Positions 2,423 through 23,661 of a stretch of DNA of 64,000 bases are shown in pieces. Under the pieces are notes generated by a model that ran no database searches, had not been told where the DNA came from, and saw only the letters and a program-made list of their open reading frames with translations. Source of the stretch: Brockia lithotrophica (lineage in GTDB: Bacteria > Bacillota > Bacilli > Thermicanales > DSM-22653); contig PEBW01000001.1 of assembly GCA_003050565.1 (NCBI GenBank), positions 62,001-126,000 on the forward strand. Reading direction: 5' to 3'. Every line of letters begins with the position of its first letter. Position 1 is the stretch's first letter. Made by a program: the position numbers and the translations under genes.

Positions 2423-3262
2423 CTACCCTCTGCGCTCCGCGCGTTCGCGCGCCTGCCGCCAGGCATAAAGGAGAACGGCGGCGGCGGCAGACACGTTCAA
2501 CGACTCGGCCCGCCCGTAGATAGGAATTCGCACGCGGACGTCCAAGAGCGCCCCGATCTCCCGGGGGATCCCCCCTCCTTCGCTCCCCAGGACCAGGGCG
2601 AAGCGCGGGGGCCAAGCCACGTCCCACACGGTCGTGTCTCCCCGCGGATCGGCGCCCAAGAGGACAACTCCGGACCGGCGAAGGGAGGCGAGCGTCTCCT
2701 CCGTCCCCTCCCACAGGGGGATGCGGAAGTGGGCACCCATGCCCGCCCGAAGGACCTTGTCCCCGTAAGGATCGACAGAACCCCGCAGAACGAGAACTCC
2801 GTCGACACCCGCTGCTTCTGCCGTGCGCAAAATGGTTCCCGCGTTACCCGGATCCTGCACGCCAGCGAGGACCGCGAGGCTGAGGGAAGGGCGAGCGGCG
2901 AGCGCGGACAGCTCTTCCGGAGGAGCGAACGTGCGCGCCGTGGCAAAGATCCCCTGGGGCGTCACGGTCGCCGCGAGGCGGCGGACGACGTCCGGCGCGA
3001 GCACGAAGACGGGGACCCGTCGGTCTGGCGCGGCGGCGAGGACGGCGGCGAGCTCGAGATCGGCTCCGGAAAGAGCCCTGCCGTATACACCTTCTTCCAA
3101 GAGGAGGGAAGTCACCGCCCCCGCTGCCCACGCGTCGAGGACGAGACGCCTCCCTTCTAGGAACACCTCCCCCGTACGGCGGCGCCCGGACCGCGAGAGA
3201 AGTTTGCGCCACGCTCGAACCCGAGGATTTCCTGCGGACGTAATCCTCGTGACTTTGTACAC
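2423..3262 (-). CDS. SpoU-family RNA 2'-O-ribose methyltransferase (YsgA-like)
   Basis: A 279-residue SPOUT-class methyltransferase expected to 2'-O-methylate a ribose in ribosomal RNA using S-adenosylmethionine. It has an N-terminal substrate-binding domain (about 1-100, RITSAGNPRVRAWRKLLSRS) and a C-terminal knotted fold with the three SpoU motifs: QDPGNAGTILRTAEAAG, LVLGSEGGGIP and the final RIPIYGRAESLNVSAAAAV. The start is the GTG at 3262, with GGGAGG 9 bases upstream; the frame extends further but without a site. Adjacency to pheS and sspI is the ysgA position in B. subtilis, which supports a YsgA-like assignment over RlmB. Confidence 0.9.
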   Translation of the reverse strand: MYKVTRITSAGNPRVRAWRKLLSRSGRRRTGEVFLEGRRLVLDAWAAGAVTSLLLEEGVYGRALSGADLELAAVLAAAPDRRVPVFVLAPDVVRRLAATVTPQGIFATARTFAPPEELSALAARPSLSLAVLAGVQDPGNAGTILRTAEAAGVDGVLVLRGSVDPYGDKVLRAGMGAHFRIPLWEGTEETLASLRRSGVVLLGADPRGDTTVWDVAWPPRFALVLGSEGGGIPREIGALLDVRVRIPIYGRAESLNVSAAAAVLLYAWRQARERAERRG

Positions 3263-3447
3263 CCTCCCGTACCTCCCGATTTCCTGCCCGCGGTGGAAAA
3301 AAGTCGTTCTCCTGCGCCGCCCCTTTGCCAGGTATGCCTGAGGTACTCCCTCCCATCCTAAGGAGCGGGAAAATCCGCAGAAAGGGAGGTGCGGCCTCGA
3401 TCGTCCGGTTCTCCCCTCGGAAACTTCGGACGGTTCGGCCGAAACCG

Positions 3448-16729: not shown

Positions 16730-16774
16730 AAGACGCCCCTCAGGACGTTTCCTTCGGCGCCTGAGGGGCGTCTT
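16730..16774. terminator. Long perfect hairpin between convergent thrS and radical SAM gene
   Basis: Fifteen-base perfect arms AAGACGCCCCTCAGG (16730-16744) and their complement (16760-16774) enclose a 15-base loop. It begins 24 bases after the thrS stop and covers the last 35 bases of the converging radical SAM gene. No T run follows on either strand, so it is either an atypical bidirectional terminator or an RNA-stabilising structure. Confidence 0.6.
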
Positions 16775-17939
16775 GTGCGTCGCGATCTTGGGAAGAAAAA
16801 GGCTGCGCGGCCTCCCGAGAGGGGTCCCTTGATTCCGCACGCCAAAGCGGAGGAATGTAAGAACAGGAAGGGTCTGCCGCGAGGGGATTCCCCGTCAGGG
16901 CGAAGGCGCGGGCGCGCGAACCGCCGCATACGTACCGGAACTCGCACGCGCGGCATTTGCCTTCGAGACGGTCGGGATCGCGGAGGGCGCGGAGAAGCGG
17001 GTGGTTTCGGTAGACCTCCGCGATCGGCGTCTCCCGCGCGTTTCCGAGCCGGTAGGGGAGAAAGCCGCTCGGGTACAGGTCGCCGATGTGGGACACGAAG
17101 AGGAACCCGTCCCCGTCGTTCACGCCGCGCGTGTAGCGGCGCATCGCCTTTCCCAGGCGGGCGACGAGCTCGGGATCGTCCTCCGGAACGAAGACCCCTC
17201 CCGGCGGGATCTCACGCCCCATTTCCCGGAGGAGGCGCTCTAGGCGAACGCGCCGGATCTGCGGCGCCTCCGTCGTCTTGATCTCAAAGGGCACGCGCCG
17301 CTCCAAATCGACGAGCCATTCAAGGACGGCTTCGAACTCTTCCGGAGAAACCATGTCTTCCCGGCGCGCCCGGCCCGTGGGAATGAGGAAGAAGACCTCC
17401 CACTTCTCCACGCCCCACGTTTCAAGCAGGCGGGCGATGTTGGGCAGGTCGTGGAGGTTGAAACTACTTACGACCGTGTTCACCTGCAGGGGCATTCCCA
17501 GGCGGCGGAGGACGCCGATCGCCCAAACGGTTTTTTCGTACGTTCCGCGAAACCCGCGAAAGGCGTCGTGAATTTCGCGCGTAGAACCATCCAGGCTGAA
17601 CGACCAGCGGTGTAGGCCGAGCTCCGCGGCGTGCTCCATGACCGCCTCTGTGACGAGAGGCGTCGCGCTGGGCGAAAGGGCGACTTCGAGCCCGGTCTTT
17701 CGCGCGTAAGACACGAGCTCAAACAGGTCCTCGCGCATGAGCGCGTCTCCCCCGGAAAAGACCAGGAGGCGCGTCCCCATGTCGTATATGTCGCGGATGA
17801 GCTTCTTTCCTTCCTCCGTGGAAAGCTCCCGGGGGTCCCGCCGGTACTGCGCCCGCGCCCGGCAGTGCCGACACTTGAGGAGGCAGGCGCGCGTGACCTC
17901 CCAGATCACGAGAACCGGGTGATCGTCGAAGTGGCGCAT
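16740..17939 (-). CDS. Radical SAM/SPASM protein of unknown substrate (TIGR04053-like)
   Basis: A 399-residue radical SAM enzyme. The N-terminus has WEVTRACLLKCRHCRA with the cluster cysteines C19, C23 and C26, followed by the SAM-binding FSGGDALMREDLFEL block. The C-terminus carries SPASM-type cysteines (CRACEFRYVCGG and a later C near DPSC) for auxiliary clusters. It resembles the family containing heme d1/AhbD-like and TIGR04053 proteins; the reaction is not known to me. I chose the ATG at 17939, with AAAGGA about 10 bases upstream; the longer frame to 18215 runs through the promoter. No small precursor peptide gene was seen beside it, arguing against a simple RiPP maturase. Confidence 0.85.
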   Translation of the reverse strand: MRHFDDHPVLVIWEVTRACLLKCRHCRARAQYRRDPRELSTEEGKKLIRDIYDMGTRLLVFSGGDALMREDLFELVSYARKTGLEVALSPSATPLVTEAVMEHAAELGLHRWSFSLDGSTREIHDAFRGFRGTYEKTVWAIGVLRRLGMPLQVNTVVSSFNLHDLPNIARLLETWGVEKWEVFFLIPTGRARREDMVSPEEFEAVLEWLVDLERRVPFEIKTTEAPQIRRVRLERLLREMGREIPPGGVFVPEDDPELVARLGKAMRRYTRGVNDGDGFLFVSHIGDLYPSGFLPYRLGNARETPIAEVYRNHPLLRALRDPDRLEGKCRACEFRYVCGGSRARAFALTGNPLAADPSCSYIPPLWRAESRDPSREAAQPFSSQDRDAQDAPQAPKETS

Positions 17940-18055
17940 GGATACCGCATCCTTTCCCCGTATTCCCGATTCCGGCTCTCTCGGTACCGTGTGGGGAGAG
18001 GAGCCCGTTCGCTTCGGCGAGATCCGCAGATCCGCTCGATCCATGGGTACGATCC

Positions 18056-18064
18056 ATTGTAGCA
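18056..18064 (-). promoter_or_regulatory. Extended -10 promoter of the radical SAM gene
   Basis: Minus-strand TGCTACAAT, a near-consensus extended -10, about 117 bases before the ATG at 17939. No -35 match. The rest of the 393-base gap 17940-18332 holds only a weak plus-strand -10 candidate TAAAAT (18253-18258) for the following operon. Confidence 0.5.
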
Positions 18065-18332
18065 TGGAAAAAAAGAAAATCGCGGAAACGGATCCTCTTG
18101 GTTCTGAATCTTTCACGGCAAAGTTGTGACAGGAATTTGAACAAACCACCTGGGGTTGCGAGAAACGCGGCAGCGCCCGGACCGAGTTCCGGAGAGGTGC
18201 AAACGAGAGAGCCACCCCGGGGATCTCCGCGCGCGGAAGCGCGGAAGTTCGCTAAAATAAGAGAATGGATGGGAATCCGAAGCCGAGGCCCCAAAAGACG
18301 CGGACGACCACCCAAATTCAGGAGGGGTGACC

Positions 18333-19493
18333 ATGGCCGGCACCACGGGCAAGCACGTCGCGTTCCTGCTTCTCGCAGGGCTCCTCCTCTTCTCCGCACT
18401 CCCCCCGGTCCTTGCGCGGGCCCAAAGCGAAGGGGTCCGTCTCTTTACCCCGTACATCCACGTAGCCGTATCCCCGGGGGACACCGTGACCTTTGACATC
18501 ACGGCGACGAACACGACGGGAACCGTACGCTCCCTTCCCCTCGCGGTTCGCGCGCCGGAAGGCTGGCGTGCAGAGCTCGCGGCAGGCGGACGGAAAATCG
18601 CCGGGCTTGCCGTGTCTCCCGAGGAAAAGGAAACGTTCACGCTTACCGTAGAGGTACCGCTCCAGGTCGAGCGCGGGAGCTACGGAGTTCAGATCGTCTC
18701 CGGCTCGGCGACTCTCCTCTCCCTCACACTCGACGTCACGGAAGCAGGGACGTTGCAGACTGAGTTCACCTCGGATCAGACGAACATGGAGGGTACGGCG
18801 AGCTCCACCTTTTCGTACGAGCTCCGCCTTCGGAACCGCACGCCGGAAACCCAGACGTACGCCCTCCTCGCCAACGCCCCCGAGGGGTGGAACGTCGTAT
18901 TTCGCGTGGAAGGAAAGGACGTGACGAGCGTCACGGTCGAGCCTAACGACATGAAGCGGATCACCGTGTCCCTCACGCCTCCGAGCAAGGTCAACGCGGG
19001 GACGTACAAGATCCCCGTTCGCGCGGAAACCAAGGGCCAGACGGCGGAGCTCACGCTGGAAGCGGTAATCCGAGGGACCTACGGTCTCAAACTCACAACG
19101 CCCAACGAGGTCCTCTCTACGGACATCACCGCCGGCGGGAGCCGAACCCTTCAGCTCGTCCTGGAAAATACGGGATCGGCACCCCTTCATCGCATCGAAC
19201 TCACGGCGGAAAGCGTCCCCATGGGCTGGGAGGTCACGTTTGACCCGAAGACCGTGGACGTCCTGGAACCCGGGAAGACGGCGACCGTAAACGCCACGAT
19301 CCGCGCCGACGGCAAGGCGATTGCGGGCGACTACGCCCTCACCCTTTCGGCAAACGCGACGGAAGCGAGCGCGTCCCAGGTGTTTCGCGTCACGGTCAAG
19401 ACGTCCCTCTGGTGGGGAATCGTAGGTTTCCTCCTCATCGCCGCCGTAGTCTTTGGGCTCTGGGAGCTCGTCCGCCGATACGGGAGGCGATGA
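18333..19493 (+). CDS. Surface protein with NEW3 (Ig-like) repeats, ABC-associated
   Basis: A 386-residue exported, membrane-anchored protein. It has a signal peptide (about 1-32, hydrophobic AFLLLAGLLLFSALPPVLA then ARAQ), three beta-rich repeats of roughly 110 residues each carrying the NEW3/COG1470 signature (APEGWRAEL, APEGWNVVF, VPMGWEVTF, each preceded by an NTTG or NTGS-like strand), and one C-terminal transmembrane helix (WWGIVGFLLIAAVVFGLWELV) with a basic RRYGRR tail. The bulk therefore lies outside the cell. It is the first of three genes; the ATPase follows after 3 bases. ATG at 18333 is preceded by AGGAGGGG. The ligand is unknown; such proteins commonly sit beside ABC-2 exporters in archaea and Firmicutes. 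Confidence 0.85.
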   Translation: MAGTTGKHVAFLLLAGLLLFSALPPVLARAQSEGVRLFTPYIHVAVSPGDTVTFDITATNTTGTVRSLPLAVRAPEGWRAELAAGGRKIAGLAVSPEEKETFTLTVEVPLQVERGSYGVQIVSGSATLLSLTLDVTEAGTLQTEFTSDQTNMEGTASSTFSYELRLRNRTPETQTYALLANAPEGWNVVFRVEGKDVTSVTVEPNDMKRITVSLTPPSKVNAGTYKIPVRAETKGQTAELTLEAVIRGTYGLKLTTPNEVLSTDITAGGSRTLQLVLENTGSAPLHRIELTAESVPMGWEVTFDPKTVDVLEPGKTATVNATIRADGKAIAGDYALTLSANATEASASQVFRVTVKTSLWWGIVGFLLIAAVVFGLWELVRRYGRR

Positions 19494-19496
19494 ACC

Positions 19497-20441
19497 TTGA
19501 CGCGGAAAGAAGCGGTCGTCCTCGAGCACCTCACGAAGGCGTTTGGCGATACCCGGGCGGTGGAAGATCTCAACCTCGCCGTACACGAAGGTGAAATCTT
19601 CGGGCTCCTCGGCCCCAACGGCGCGGGGAAGACGACGACGATCCTCATGCTCCTGGGTCTCGTGGAACCCACCGAAGGACGCGCCCTCGTGTTTGGAATC
19701 GACGCCACGCGGAATCCGCGGGAGGTCAAGCGCCTCGTGGGTTATCTCCCCGACGACGTGGGGTTTTACGAGGACCTCACGGGGCGAGAAAACCTCCTCC
19801 TCACCGGGCGGCTCAACGGGCTTTCCGAGACAGAGGCCAATGCCTCCGCCGAACGCCTTCTCGCCCGGGTAGGGCTGGAAGGTGCGGCCGACCTTCCGGT
19901 GAAGGCGTACTCTCGCGGGATGCGCCAGCGGCTCGGCCTCGCCGACACGCTCATGAAAAAGCCACGGCTCATCGTCCTCGACGAACCCACGTTGGGGATC
20001 GACCCCGAAGGCGTGCGGGAATTCCTCCACCTCATCCGAACCCTCAGCCAAGAAGAGGGTGTCACCGTGCTCCTCTCCTCGCACCACCTCCACCAAGTTC
20101 AGGCCATCTGCGACCGCGTGGGGATCTTCGTGAAGGGCCGTCTCCTCGCCGTAGGGACGGTCGACGAACTCTCTCGCCAGCTTTTCTCCCGAGAGCCGTA
20201 CGCGCTGCGCCTTACCGCCCGCCCCCTTTCGGAAGAGGTCCTTCGGGCGCTCGCCCGGATTCCCGGCGTCACCCGCGTCGAACCCCAAGGCGCGGACGAA
20301 CTCTTCGTTGCGGCCACGCGCGACGTGGCTTCGGAGGTCGCCCGCGAGGTCGTCGGCCGCGGAGCGTCCCTCGCTCGCCTCGAACCCGTGCGGTACGGTC
20401 TCGACGAGATCTACCACCGCTTCTTCGAAGGGGTGGCGTGA
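19497..20441 (+). CDS. ABC transporter ATP-binding protein (ABC-2 exporter type)
   Basis: A 314-residue ATPase of the CcmA/DrrA class. Motifs: Walker A GPNGAGKTT (39-47), Q-loop region GYLPDDVGFYEDLTG, signature SRGMRQRLGLAD, Walker B LIVLDEPTLGID and switch histidine SSHHLHQ. A C-terminal extension of about 90 residues is typical of DrrA-like proteins. Translation starts at a TTG (19497), with GGAGG 9 bases upstream at the end of the preceding gene. It should energise the permease encoded immediately downstream. Confidence 0.93.
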   Translation: MTRKEAVVLEHLTKAFGDTRAVEDLNLAVHEGEIFGLLGPNGAGKTTTILMLLGLVEPTEGRALVFGIDATRNPREVKRLVGYLPDDVGFYEDLTGRENLLLTGRLNGLSETEANASAERLLARVGLEGAADLPVKAYSRGMRQRLGLADTLMKKPRLIVLDEPTLGIDPEGVREFLHLIRTLSQEEGVTVLLSSHHLHQVQAICDRVGIFVKGRLLAVGTVDELSRQLFSREPYALRLTARPLSEEVLRALARIPGVTRVEPQGADELFVAATRDVASEVAREVVGRGASLARLEPVRYGLDEIYHRFFEGVA

Positions 20442-20442
20442 G

Positions 20443-21387
20443 ATGGACCGCGGCTTGGTCGTGCTCTACCGCAAAGAGCTCGCCGACCACGTGCACAGCC
20501 TTCGCTCCACCGTGCTCGCCGCCCTCATCGCCCTTACGTCCCTCGCCTCCCTCTTCACCGCCGCTCAAGCGCTTCGCTCGTTCGTCCCTTCGACCAAGGA
20601 CCCGTCCGCCGTTCCCGTGTTTCTCATCGCCGTGAGCTCAGGCGCAAACAACCTTCCCTCGCTCGCATCCTTCGTAGGCTTTTTGGCTCCCCTCCTGGGG
20701 CTCGGCATGAGCTTCGACGCCATCAGCTCGGAACGCAACCGCCGGACGCTCATTCGCCTCCTCGCCCAACCCATCTACCGGGACGACGTGATCCTCGCGA
20801 AGTGGCTCGCCGCACTCACCGTCGTGGGCGTGTTCTTCTTCGCCCTGGGGGTGCTGGTCGTCGGGCTCGCGATCTTCTTCTTTGGCGTGCCGCCCGAGGG
20901 CGAGGAGCTCCTCCGCTTCTTCACGTACCTGGCCGCGACGGTCGTCTACGTTGCGGTGTGGATTTCCCTAGGGGTGCTCCTTTCCCTCCTCTTCCGCCAG
21001 CCCTCCACGGCGATCCTCGTCGGCCTCGCCGCGTGGCTCTACCTCGTCCTCTTCCATCCCCTCCTCGTCAACCTCTTCGTCCCCGTAGACGAAGGGGCTC
21101 CCCCGAACGTGCAACTCCGCCAACTCGCGTGGCATCAAGGCCTTCTCCGCCTCTCCCCCGTGGAACTCTACCAGGAAATCGCCACCGCGCTCCTCACGCC
21201 GGAGGTGCGCACCCTGGGACCGCTCACCCTCGGTCAGCTCGTCGGCGCCGTCCCCACGCCGCTCCCGTATTCCCAGAGCCTAATCCTCGTCCTTCCACAC
21301 GTCGTCGTCCTCTTCGCCCTCGCCGCGACCCTCTTCGGCGTCGCCTTTGCCTACTTCATGCGTCAGGACATCACGGGCAGGGAGTAG
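20443..21387 (+). CDS. ABC transporter permease (ABC-2 type, NosY-like)
   Basis: A 314-residue membrane protein with six predicted helices (for example VLAALIALTSLASLFTAA, GVFFFALGVLVVGLAIFFF, ILVLPHVVVLFALAATLFG) and the NosY/ABC-2 feature SSERNRRTLIRLLAQPIYRDDV, a cytoplasmic coupling loop. The ATG at 20443 follows the ATPase stop by one base, so the pair is translationally coupled. Large extracytoplasmic loop at about 185-260. With the NEW3 protein it forms a three-gene operon; the substrate is unknown. Its last 108 bases are overlapped antisense by the PhoU-like gene. Confidence 0.9.
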   Translation: MDRGLVVLYRKELADHVHSLRSTVLAALIALTSLASLFTAAQALRSFVPSTKDPSAVPVFLIAVSSGANNLPSLASFVGFLAPLLGLGMSFDAISSERNRRTLIRLLAQPIYRDDVILAKWLAALTVVGVFFFALGVLVVGLAIFFFGVPPEGEELLRFFTYLAATVVYVAVWISLGVLLSLLFRQPSTAILVGLAAWLYLVLFHPLLVNLFVPVDEGAPPNVQLRQLAWHQGLLRLSPVELYQEIATALLTPEVRTLGPLTLGQLVGAVPTPLPYSQSLILVLPHVVVLFALAATLFGVAFAYFMRQDITGRE

Positions 21388-21990
21388 GGGAATTCCTCCT
21401 GCCTCCGTCCGCCCCGCCTCGGCCAAGTAGGCGCGAACGTCTTCGTACATCTCGGCGACGACCTCTCCTGCGCAGACGAGGAAGACCCCGTAAATCCCCG
21501 GGAGGTCTTCTCCTCCTGCAAAAAAGCCAAACGCACGCCCCTCCTCGCGTACGCGGAGGAGGGGCGTCGCTTCCGCGACGAGGAACGCCTCTACGATCTC
21601 CTCCGCCGCCCGGAGCAAGACCCGCACGTACCGGGGAAAGGTGACGTCCGCCTCCTCGGCGAGTCGGGCCGTGCTCCCCCCCTCCGGGAGGCGCCGTGCC
21701 ATGTACACCCCGAATTGGCCAAGGCGACGGAGGGAACGGGCGAGCTTCCCGGCGGTGATCCACCACCGGGCCTCTTTGTCCGAACTTTTTGTTACGGTTA
21801 GCGCGCGGAGGGCGACTTCTTCCAACCTCCGTGAATTTTCCTGAAGGGCCTCTTCTTCGGCCGCCGTCCGTCGGGCGAGGTCGAGGTCGTGGCGGAAGGT
21901 TGCCACCGTCGCCCCTTCCACGGCGCGCTTCGCCCACCTGAGCTGGGCGAGGAGGAGCCCGTGAACCTCACTCCGCAAGTCGTCTTCCAC
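21280..21990 (-). CDS. PhoU-like protein at the end of the pst operon
   Basis: A 236-residue protein lying 14 bases after the second pstB. Residues about 1-175 are helical and resemble a PhoU-type bundle (LRSEVHGLLLAQLRWAKRAVEGA, HDLDLARRTAAEEEALQENSRRLEEVALRAL), consistent with a peripheral regulator of the Pst transporter, though similarity is weak by eye and metal-binding E/DxxxD motifs are not obvious. The last 36 residues are strongly acidic (GKGDAEEGRGEGEEDDDV) and are encoded antisense to the end of the ABC permease, so the tail probably arose by loss of an earlier stop. I chose the GTG at 21990, with AGGGGG upstream; a TTG at 22008 overlapping the pstB stop is the alternative. A bona fide phoU is at 33495. 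Confidence 0.65.
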   Translation of the reverse strand: MEDDLRSEVHGLLLAQLRWAKRAVEGATVATFRHDLDLARRTAAEEEALQENSRRLEEVALRALTVTKSSDKEARWWITAGKLARSLRRLGQFGVYMARRLPEGGSTARLAEEADVTFPRYVRVLLRAAEEIVEAFLVAEATPLLRVREEGRAFGFFAGGEDLPGIYGVFLVCAGEVVAEMYEDVRAYLAEAGRTEAGGIPLLPARDVLTHEVGKGDAEEGRGEGEEDDDVWKDED

Positions 21991-22004
21991 CCTGTCTCCC
22001 CCTC

Positions 22005-22778
22005 TCAACCGAAGCGGCCGGCGACGTAATCCTCCGTCTCCTTTTTCTTAGGTCTTTGGAAGATCTCCGAAGTCGGACCGACCTCTACGAGAGAACCGTC
22101 GAGAAAAAAGGCGGTGATGTCGGAAATGCGCGCCGCCTGTTGCATGTTGTGCGTCACGATCACGACCGTAAGGCGCGACTTGAGTTCGTAGAGGAGCTCT
22201 TCGATCTTCGCCGTGGAGATGGGGTCCAACGCCGACGTAGGCTCGTCGAGGAGGAGGACTTCCGGATGCAGGGCCAGGGCGCGGGCGATGACGAGCCGCT
22301 GCTGCTGGCCGCCGGATAACGAGAGGGCCGACTCATGCAGGCGGTCTTTCACTTCGTCCCAAAGGGCTGCCCAGCGCAAGCTGCGCTCGACGATCTCGTC
22401 AAGCTCCGTTCGGGATACGCGCCCGTGCAGGCGAGGGCCGTAGGCGACGTTGTCGTAGATGCTCATGGGAAAGGGGTTCGGCCGCTGGAACACCATACCC
22501 ACGCGCCTGCGCAAGGCGAGGACGTCCGTGCGCGGATCGTAGATGTCCTCGCCTTCGAAGAGGATCGTCCCGCGTACGCTCGTGTTGGGGATGAAGTCGT
22601 TCATTCGGTTGAGGAGGCGAATGAAGGTGGACTTCCCGCAGCCCGAAGGGCCGATGAGGGCGGTGATCTGGTGTCTGGGAATGTCAAGCGTGACGCCGAA
22701 GAGGGCCTGTTTGTTGCCGTAAAAAAAATCTACGTCGCGCACCGAAAAGACCACGCGCTCCCCACGTTCTGGGCTCAC
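22005..22778 (-). CDS. pstB: Phosphate ABC transporter ATP-binding protein PstB (second copy)
   Basis: ATPase of the high-affinity phosphate importer. The 257-residue product has Walker [10 protein letters not shown] (43-51), Q-loop [14 protein letters not shown], signature [12 protein letters not shown], Walker [13 protein letters not shown] and the C-terminal [11 protein letters not shown] ending typical of PstB. The start is the GTG at 22778, with CGGGAGG 8 bases upstream; this gives the normal PstB length. It follows the first pstB by 16 bases, as pstBA-pstBB does in Bacillus. Confidence 0.95.
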
Positions 22779-22794
22779 GCCGATACCCTCCCGC

Positions 22795-23661
22795 TCAACC
22801 GAAACGTCCCGTGACGTAGTCCTCCGTCCGCTTGTCCTTCGGACGGGTGAAGATCTCCCGCGTCGGGGCAAACTCGACGAGGCGTCCTTCGAGGAAGAAC
22901 GCCGTGTAGTCGGAGACGCGGGCCGCTTGCTGGAGATTGTGGGTGACGATGACGATCGTGTACTCCTTTTTGAGTTCGTAGAGGAGTTCTTCGATCTTTG
23001 CCGTGGAGATGGGGTCGAGGGCGGCGGCGGGCTCGTCGAAGAGGATCACCTCGGGCTCCACGGCGATCGTCCGGGCGATGCACAGCCGCTGCTGTTGCCC
23101 ACCGGATAGCGAGAGGGCAGACTGGTGAAGCCGATCCTTCACTTCGTCCCAAAGGGCCGCCCGACGGAGGCTCTCCTCCACGCGCGCGTCGAGCTCCACA
23201 CGGTCGCGAACGCCGTGAAAGCGGAGGGCGTACGCGATGTTTTCGTAGATCGACTTGTTGAAGGGGTTGGGGCGCTGCCAGACCATGCCGATACGCGTCC
23301 GCACGAAGCGCACGTCAACGTCCGGGCGGTTGATGTCCACACCGCGGTAGAGGATCGCCCCTTCCGTACGTACGTCGGGAATCGTGTCGTTCATCCGGTT
23401 GAGCGCCCGGAGGTAGGTGGACTTTCCCGAACCGGAAGGGCCGATGAGCGCCGTCACGTATCCCTTGCGGAATTCCAGGCTCACGCGTTCGACGGCAAGG
23501 GTGCGCCCATAGTAGACGGACAACTCCCGCGTGCTCAAGCTCACCTGCCCCACGGCGAGCGGGGCATCCCAGACGCCCTCAAGCTCACGTTCGAGGGTAG
23601 CCGCACGCTTCACCCCTAACGGGATCCCCGTCGCAAGCGCGAGGCGCCGCAGAGCTTCCAT
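22795..23661 (-). CDS. pstB: Phosphate ABC transporter ATP-binding protein PstB (first copy)
   Basis: The upstream of two tandem PstB ATPases, 288 residues with an N-terminal extension of about 35 residues compared with the downstream copy. Walker [10 protein letters not shown] (74-82), Q-loop [14 protein letters not shown], signature [12 protein letters not shown], Walker [14 protein letters not shown]-terminus [14 protein letters not shown] at 23661 has GGGGGGAAGGG upstream. The copies differ around the loops contacting the permease, so one may serve a different permease pairing or the two may form a heterodimer on PstA/PstC. Confidence 0.95.

Follow-up and report, generated by a model that had tools for sequence, protein, structure and literature searches.

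The 64,000-nucleotide stretch of Brockia lithotrophica DNA analysed here (contig PEBW01000001.1, positions 62,001 to 126,000 of the forward strand; hereafter the window) carries on its forward strand a trio of genes coding for a NEW3 (NPCBM_assoc) protein (18333-19493, 386 amino acids, ATG start), an ATP-binding cassette (ABC) ATPase (19497-20441, 314 amino acids, TTG start) and an ABC-2 permease with a predicted NosY-like fold (20443-21387, 314 amino acids). We propose, with a confidence somewhat above even, that this trio encodes an ABC exporter induced by envelope stress, one subunit of which is immunoglobulin (Ig)-like and anchored in the membrane; in its ancestral arrangement it would be under the control of an extracytoplasmic function (ECF) sigma factor. 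The best functional clue is the association of the trio with ECF sigma and anti-sigma genes and with a promoter. This clue was absent from a preliminary description of the window and is visible only by comparison, because the window's own genome lacks these elements.

A conserved gene trio and its ECF neighbours

In a relatedness-chosen sample of 61 genomes, the window's own included, NEW3 matches at an expectation value (E) of at most 0.001 were found in 14, of which 13 were strong (own included); the remaining genome, as well as a second place in one of the strong ones, gave weak partial matches only. A single-sequence NEW3 query of the genome contigs gave no match, an alignment query being required, and a wider contig scan with the NEW3 alignment returned 123 relatives, labelled as Bacillota, Bacteroidota, a few Actinomycetota and one Chloroflexi, the best 80 of which were analysed as loci. 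The order NEW3, ATPase, permease on the same strand is kept in 91 of 92 loci, or in 84 of 85 distinct loci when 7 contigs, recognised as duplicates by their length and position, are set aside; the exception, L100, lies on a contig that ends 832 bases after the NEW3 gene, with the permease beyond reach. The gap between the NEW3 and ATPase genes has a median of 3 bases (72 loci). Between the window and its congener, the ratio of nonsynonymous to synonymous substitution rates (dN/dS) is 0.089, 0.090 and 0.085 across the three genes, with no stops, which shows purifying selection on the trio in the window's genus. Because the same order and strand recur in 91 of the 92 loci and the genes are under purifying selection, the arrangement is not a matter of chance, and the trio can be regarded as an old and stable unit. 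The preliminary description had linked the surface protein and the ABC exporter into one unit, and the comparison of neighbourhoods bears this out, the homologues being found together and not mostly apart. It had also seen no counterpart in the Bacillus gene order, which stands in so far as B. subtilis is not among the control genomes with NEW3, but does not extend to strains labelled Bacillus (L066, L071, L076), which carry the cassette along with other Bacillaceae.

The neighbourhood of the trio was analysed by clustering the adjacent open reading frames (ORFs) of 86 loci (the window, the 80 and 5 further). Besides the trio, only two clusters occur in more than 12 of these loci: anti-sigma factors make up one (47 loci) and sigma factors the other (42). 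The next neighbour cluster, present in 12, is a second sigma factor. Sigma genes were then searched for with profiles over all ORFs, longest-ORF picking having masked some of them behind antisense ORFs (in H. schlegelii and others). By this search, 66 of the 86 loci have an ECF sigma gene next to the trio: the first type, found in 53, is in all cases divergent and upstream of the trio, and the second, found in 13, is co-directional with it, lying upstream in 6 and downstream in 7. An anti-sigma gene is located next to the sigma gene in 65 of the 66 loci, L037 being a profile miss. The Sigma70_r2 and r4 domains (Pfam) were confirmed in three example sigmas, and the best NCBIfam models differ by sigma type (PRK12519/SigK-like for the first, sigma C-like for the second). 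The first-type anti-sigma carries RskA_C (Pfam, one protein tested), and no Pfam family matched the second-type anti-sigma (two proteins tested). Exactly one hydrophobic segment is present in all 62 clustered anti-sigma proteins, and the HxxxCxxC motif, which is typical of zinc anti-sigma factors, occurs in 43 of 49 first-type proteins. The sigma/anti-sigma pair is present in culturable Bacilli (Brevibacillus, Paenibacillus, Cohnella, Lederbergia, Ammoniphilus) and in Moorella. In Lederbergia wuyishanensis (L078), a second pair of the same type (2712-3398) lies ~5 kb upstream of the trio.

The region upstream of the NEW3 gene contains a conserved dyad that differs between the two groups. The dyads were picked by counting in this region: first-type loci gave TAAATCC-N16-CGTA, and second-type loci TTGTAACC-N16-CGTC. 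Scoring allowed one mismatch at most and spacers of 15-17. Since the same loci had served to choose the patterns, shuffled sequences and the other group were used as controls. The first dyad (TAAATCC-N15-17-CGTA) precedes NEW3 in 49 of 53 first-type loci, against a shuffle mean of 1.20, and the second (TTGTAACC-N15-17-CGTC) in 8 of 13 second-type loci, against a shuffle mean of 0.00. Outside its own group the first occurs in 1 of 33 loci and the second in 1 of 73, both being the same artefact at L093, whose contig begins 19 bases before NEW3 and where the upstream slice reached into the locus. Over both strands of the 53 first-type loci (1.69 Mb), 43 exact sites of the first dyad were counted, of which 42 stand directly before NEW3 (38 assigned automatically and 4 from coordinates, in L038, L065, L071 and L079) and 1 elsewhere. 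We consider the dyad to be the putative ECF promoter of the trio, matching the adjacent sigma factor, whose binding is assumed. A similar dyad is directed at the sigma gene in only 4 of the 53 loci; where a second-type sigma lies upstream (6 loci), the dyad preceding its gene is weak, with 2 mismatches in L090 and L095, and is missing from the other four. The string TAAATCC also stands in a Sinorhizobium RpoE1 promoter region shown in PMC6180224, and this is taken as a coincidence.

Eight genomes carrying the first sigma were scanned whole and gave 27 exact dyad sites, 6 of them before NEW3; the other two of the eight have a one-mismatch dyad before NEW3 instead. From this distribution the regulon looks very small, perhaps reduced to the trio operon alone. 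Several points nevertheless weigh against our proposal. The 21 further dyad sites in the eight genomes compare with 8 for a reversed control pattern, and a few further sigma targets are possible; 19 of the 21 fall inside mechanical ORFs, a weak test, since 3 of the 6 real sites overlap such ORFs too. Moreover, the switch would not be obligatory, because no ECF gene lies in the available flank of 20 of the 86 loci, namely the window, its congener, three of the Caldanaerobacter/Thermoanaerobacter type, six Bacteroidota and nine others; weaker sigma matches (E ≤ 0.1) were not found in these 20 loci either, several of which have short flanks. Finally, the direction of export is assumed from the ABC-2 type of the permease.

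We propose that two ATPase and two NosY-like permease subunits would assemble with one or more NEW3 proteins in a single complex. The ancestral operon would be the dedicated output of the neighbouring ECF sigma factor, which would be held by the single-pass membrane anti-sigma factor until a signal from the membrane or the wall releases it, allowing it to transcribe the operon from the adjacent ECF promoter. The pump, with the Ig stack as its outer, membrane-anchored part, would then remove or relocate the compound at fault, which is most likely a lipid-like molecule or an amphipathic one that acts on membranes. The constant proximity of the transporter and the sigma/anti-sigma genes could also be explained by a flux sensor following a Bce-like logic, in which the NEW3-ABC complex would mainly measure a compound and signal to the anti-sigma factor, transport being secondary. 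However, the trio is retained under purifying selection where the sigma factor is gone, and the promoter is directed at the trio and seldom at the sigma gene, so that we judge such a sensor quite improbable. The proposed stress-inducible exporter would turn an anonymous trio into a testable unit, in which a promoter sequence and a dedicated sigma/anti-sigma pair go with a pump whose outer subunit is unusual. Since the sigma factor seems to have few other targets, the inducing signal should point directly to the substrate of the pump, a hard question for uncharacterised ABC exporters.

The predicted pump and its outer subunit

The coordinates and the Pfam matches agree with the three-gene layout given in the preliminary description, with intergenic gaps of 3 bases between NEW3 and ATPase and 1 base between ATPase and permease. 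The NEW3 gene has an alternative GTG start at 18327, and the TTG start of the ATPase gene is preceded by the purine-rich GGGAGGCG. The NEW3 protein matches PF10633 (Pfam) with 110.6 bits (gathering score 24.4, E 4.2e-32) over three stretches. Above the curated cut-offs, the ATPase contains ABC_tran (PF00005, E 6.7e-31, 109.2 bits against 27.2) and the permease ABC2_membrane_2 (PF12679, E 3e-31, 108.2 bits against 25), the pair thereby belonging to the ABC-2 exporters; the Walker A (GPNGAGKTT), signature (SRGMRQ) and Walker B (LIVLDEP) motifs of the ATPase are visible. Among the matches listed, no NCBIfam model exceeds its cut-off for any protein of the trio. The NEW3 gene is the sole NEW3-bearing place found in the window's genome, where no second permease match was found at E ≤ 1. 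A role in anti-phage defence was considered and rejected: neither the NEW3 protein nor the permease has a match among the PADLOC models, and those of defence ATPases are matched by the ATPase over part of their length only.

As modelled by AlphaFold2 (mean predicted local distance difference test, pLDDT, 91.8), the NEW3 protein begins with a hydrophobic helix, continues with three beta-sandwich domains and closes with a membrane helix; together with the Pfam stretches, the model upholds the earlier assignment of a membrane-anchored extracellular protein with three Ig-like NEW3 repeats. The hydrophobic N-terminal helix, a signal or anchor with no lipobox (18348-18395, forward strand as for all features of the trio, model residues 6-21), is followed by Ig-like domains 1 (18435-18737, residues 35-135), 2 (18762-19070, residues 144-246) and 3 (19086-19400, residues 252-356), the last being the clearest NEW3 domain with the best Pfam stretch, then by the C-terminal membrane helix (19407-19481, residues 359-383) and a short cytoplasmic tail ending in RRYGRR. 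Both the N-terminal hydrophobic stretch and the C-terminal membrane helix are found in 77 of 78 NEW3 homologues, the tail motif [YF]GRx in 74 of 78 and a lipobox in none of the 78. On this model, the three Ig-like domains are predicted to stand outside the membrane. No significant match to solved proteins was obtained with the NEW3 sequence (best E 0.036), and the model of domain 3 superposes on the sialidase Ig domain 2bzd_A with a Z score of 13.3 and a root-mean-square deviation (rmsd) of 1.6 over 99 residues.

This last resemblance, as well as the naming of NEW3 from carbohydrate-active enzymes and the retention of the cassette without a neighbouring sigma gene in 20 of 86 loci, would fit a housekeeping exporter or flippase for a surface polymer or glycolipid, whose NEW3 domains would guide the polymer through the wall, a reading close to the one in the preliminary description. 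We regard this as unlikely: the 40 most frequent neighbour clusters include no recurrent polymer or glycosyltransferase genes, those other than sigma and anti-sigma being present in at most 7 of 86 loci, and of 299 genomes drawn evenly from the class, no more than 28 carry the NEW3 protein, in one copy each, unlike an essential wall pathway.

When compared by sequence with solved chains, the ATPase matches the ABCA transporters best (7.9e-75), then NosF (1e-51), which is its closest solved bacterial relative. The permease model (pLDDT 88.3, predicted template modelling score 0.88) is nearest in fold to NosY (7znq_y; Z 26.4, rmsd 2.3 over 250 residues), the ABCG group reaching a Z score of ~20, and NosY is also its sole sequence match in the PDB (1.9e-5). 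From the model and the alignment, a long conserved segment lies between the last two membrane helices of the permease (RLSP..LGPLT..PLP; 21079-21267, residues 213-275); it is probably extracellular and would be a candidate contact for the substrate or for NEW3. The permease of Thermoanaerobacter thermocopriae (L034, 9987-11008) and the ATPase of Bacillus sp. JCM 19034 (L071, 9168-10113) are each split over two ORFs, through a frameshift or an assembly error.

The copy in the window

The region upstream of the window's trio (17900-18332, forward strand) is without the ECF dyad, its nearest match having 3 mismatches of 11, which is the chance level, and relatives of the cassette sigma were found neither in the window's genome nor in its congener. 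Three other members of the window's family carry a sigma gene beside the trio. In a tree of 73 concatenated trios, obtained by a quick method with the Shimodaira-Hasegawa-like approximate likelihood ratio test (SH-aLRT) as sole support, the window pair is grouped, with starred support, within the clade of the first sigma type, its neighbours being the sigma-bearing Hydrogenibacillus and Carbobacillus. Because of this nested position, a loss of the sigma factor, the anti-sigma factor and the promoter in the window's genus is the simplest reading and the most likely one; the tree alone cannot separate gain from loss. The orphaned pump is still under selection, because dN/dS is 0.085-0.090 and no stops are present. 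No sigma-70 promoter was found before the window's NEW3 gene (0, with 0.2 in shuffles), and no RNA element of Rfam upstream of the trio; with its sigma factor, anti-sigma factor and promoter most likely lost, the trio would be expressed from some other promoter. The copies labelled Bacteroidota (L073, L080, L082, L083, L085 and L094) form one clade nested among the Bacilli copies, in the half of the tree that also contains the window pair, and are without a sigma gene, the flanks of L073 and L085 being short; they fit a single transfer, as if of a trio without its sigma gene.

At the position held by the ECF sigma gene in relatives, the window has a radical S-adenosylmethionine (SAM)/SPASM gene of the TIGR04053 family (16740-18092, reverse strand; 470 bits, cut-off 395), divergent to the trio, and a radical SAM homologue occupies the same place in the congener (L019). 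A block of ~100 bases, at about 18049-18150 of the window, is near-identical between the two, with diverged flanks, and holds an imperfect palindrome, TTGTgac...tgaACAA; it may be the control region of the radical SAM gene. On the other side, a PhoU-like ORF (21280-22008, reverse strand; PF01895, 20.9 bits, just below the cut-off) shares 108 bases, tail to tail, with the 3' end of the permease gene, and the overlap is the same in the congener L019. It ends a phosphate gene group (pst-like, by eye) that reaches ~26671 and includes two genes for PstB-like ATPases (22005-22871 and 22795-23661).

It can be hypothesised, more tentatively than for the trio itself and as a possibility that we hold below even, that these systems represent an undescribed and widespread class of envelope-stress exporters, in which a NosY-type pump has an obligate, membrane-anchored Ig-like subunit. 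Different ECF sigma/anti-sigma pairs would have taken up this pump on two or more occasions, as their principal and possibly sole target. Later loss of the switch would leave an orphan pump in some lineages. The Ig stack would form the outer half of the pump, receiving substrate drawn out of the membrane and passing it on to the wall or the exterior. The copy in the window is in itself a probable case of a regulator lost and an effector kept.

Comparison with known systems

The preliminary description had proposed an uncharacterised system, in line with which no curated family names the trio, and no description of it was found in the open-licence literature searched, including the portions of PMC10667668 and PMC10849945 that were covered. 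The closest architecture is found in NosDFY(L), which is devoted to the maturation of nitrous oxide reductase (PDB 7o0y, 7qba, 7znq) and shares with the trio a NosY-type permease fold, a NosF-type ATPase and an extracytoplasmic accessory protein encoded with the ABC pair. With NosY as the best fold match and the sole PDB sequence match of the permease, and NosF as the closest solved bacterial ATPase, the trio could supply metal or sulfur for the maturation of an extracytoplasmic metalloenzyme, NEW3 replacing NosD. However, the accessory protein of the trio is a membrane-anchored stack of three Ig domains which does not belong to the NosD family (PF05048, 0 places in the window's genome), and among 58 NEW3 proteins not one Cys or His position is shared by as many as half. 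Moreover, NosL (PF05573) and NosD are each found in only 4 of the 13 cassette genomes, and each is absent from the window's genome and from 9 of the 13; three genomes (G009, G026 and G045) carry NosL and NosD side by side, away from the cassette. We thus see a metal or sulfur supply as very improbable, and the copper-type ligand suggested in the preliminary description is not retained. Judging from these sequence comparisons, the cassette is distinct from the Nos system, with a pump part built on the same plan.

The ABCA phospholipid transporters (ABCA7, ABCA3, ABCA4) provide the best sequence match to the ATPase among solved chains, but these are single-chain eukaryotic proteins with their extracellular domains in the same chain, and those domains are not known to be NEW3. 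Like the outer NEW3 protein of the trio, they have a large extracellular part above the membrane, as described in a section of PMC11466899. The DrrAB drug exporters are related through the ATPase, which reaches 257.2 bits with the DrrA model TIGR01188 and falls below its cut-off of 312.45; the trio differs from them by the addition of the NEW3 protein and by ECF control in most of the relatives examined.

The sigY operon of B. subtilis (sigY-yxlCDEFG), in which an ECF sigma factor is encoded with an uncharacterised ABC exporter pair, is not known to include a NEW3 gene and has a promoter different from that of the cassette. The sigma factors are also distinct, the two cassette sigmas tested out of 66 scoring 64.4 (L038) and 76.8 bits (L110) with the SigY model, against a cut-off of 194. 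YxlF2G2 of B. subtilis is listed as an exporter of unknown function (PMC11466899), and the sigma-Y genes are switched on under ethanol stress (PMC3498285). With its ECF sigma factor encoded beside an ABC exporter pair, the sigY operon is the described system whose logic is nearest to that proposed here for the trio.

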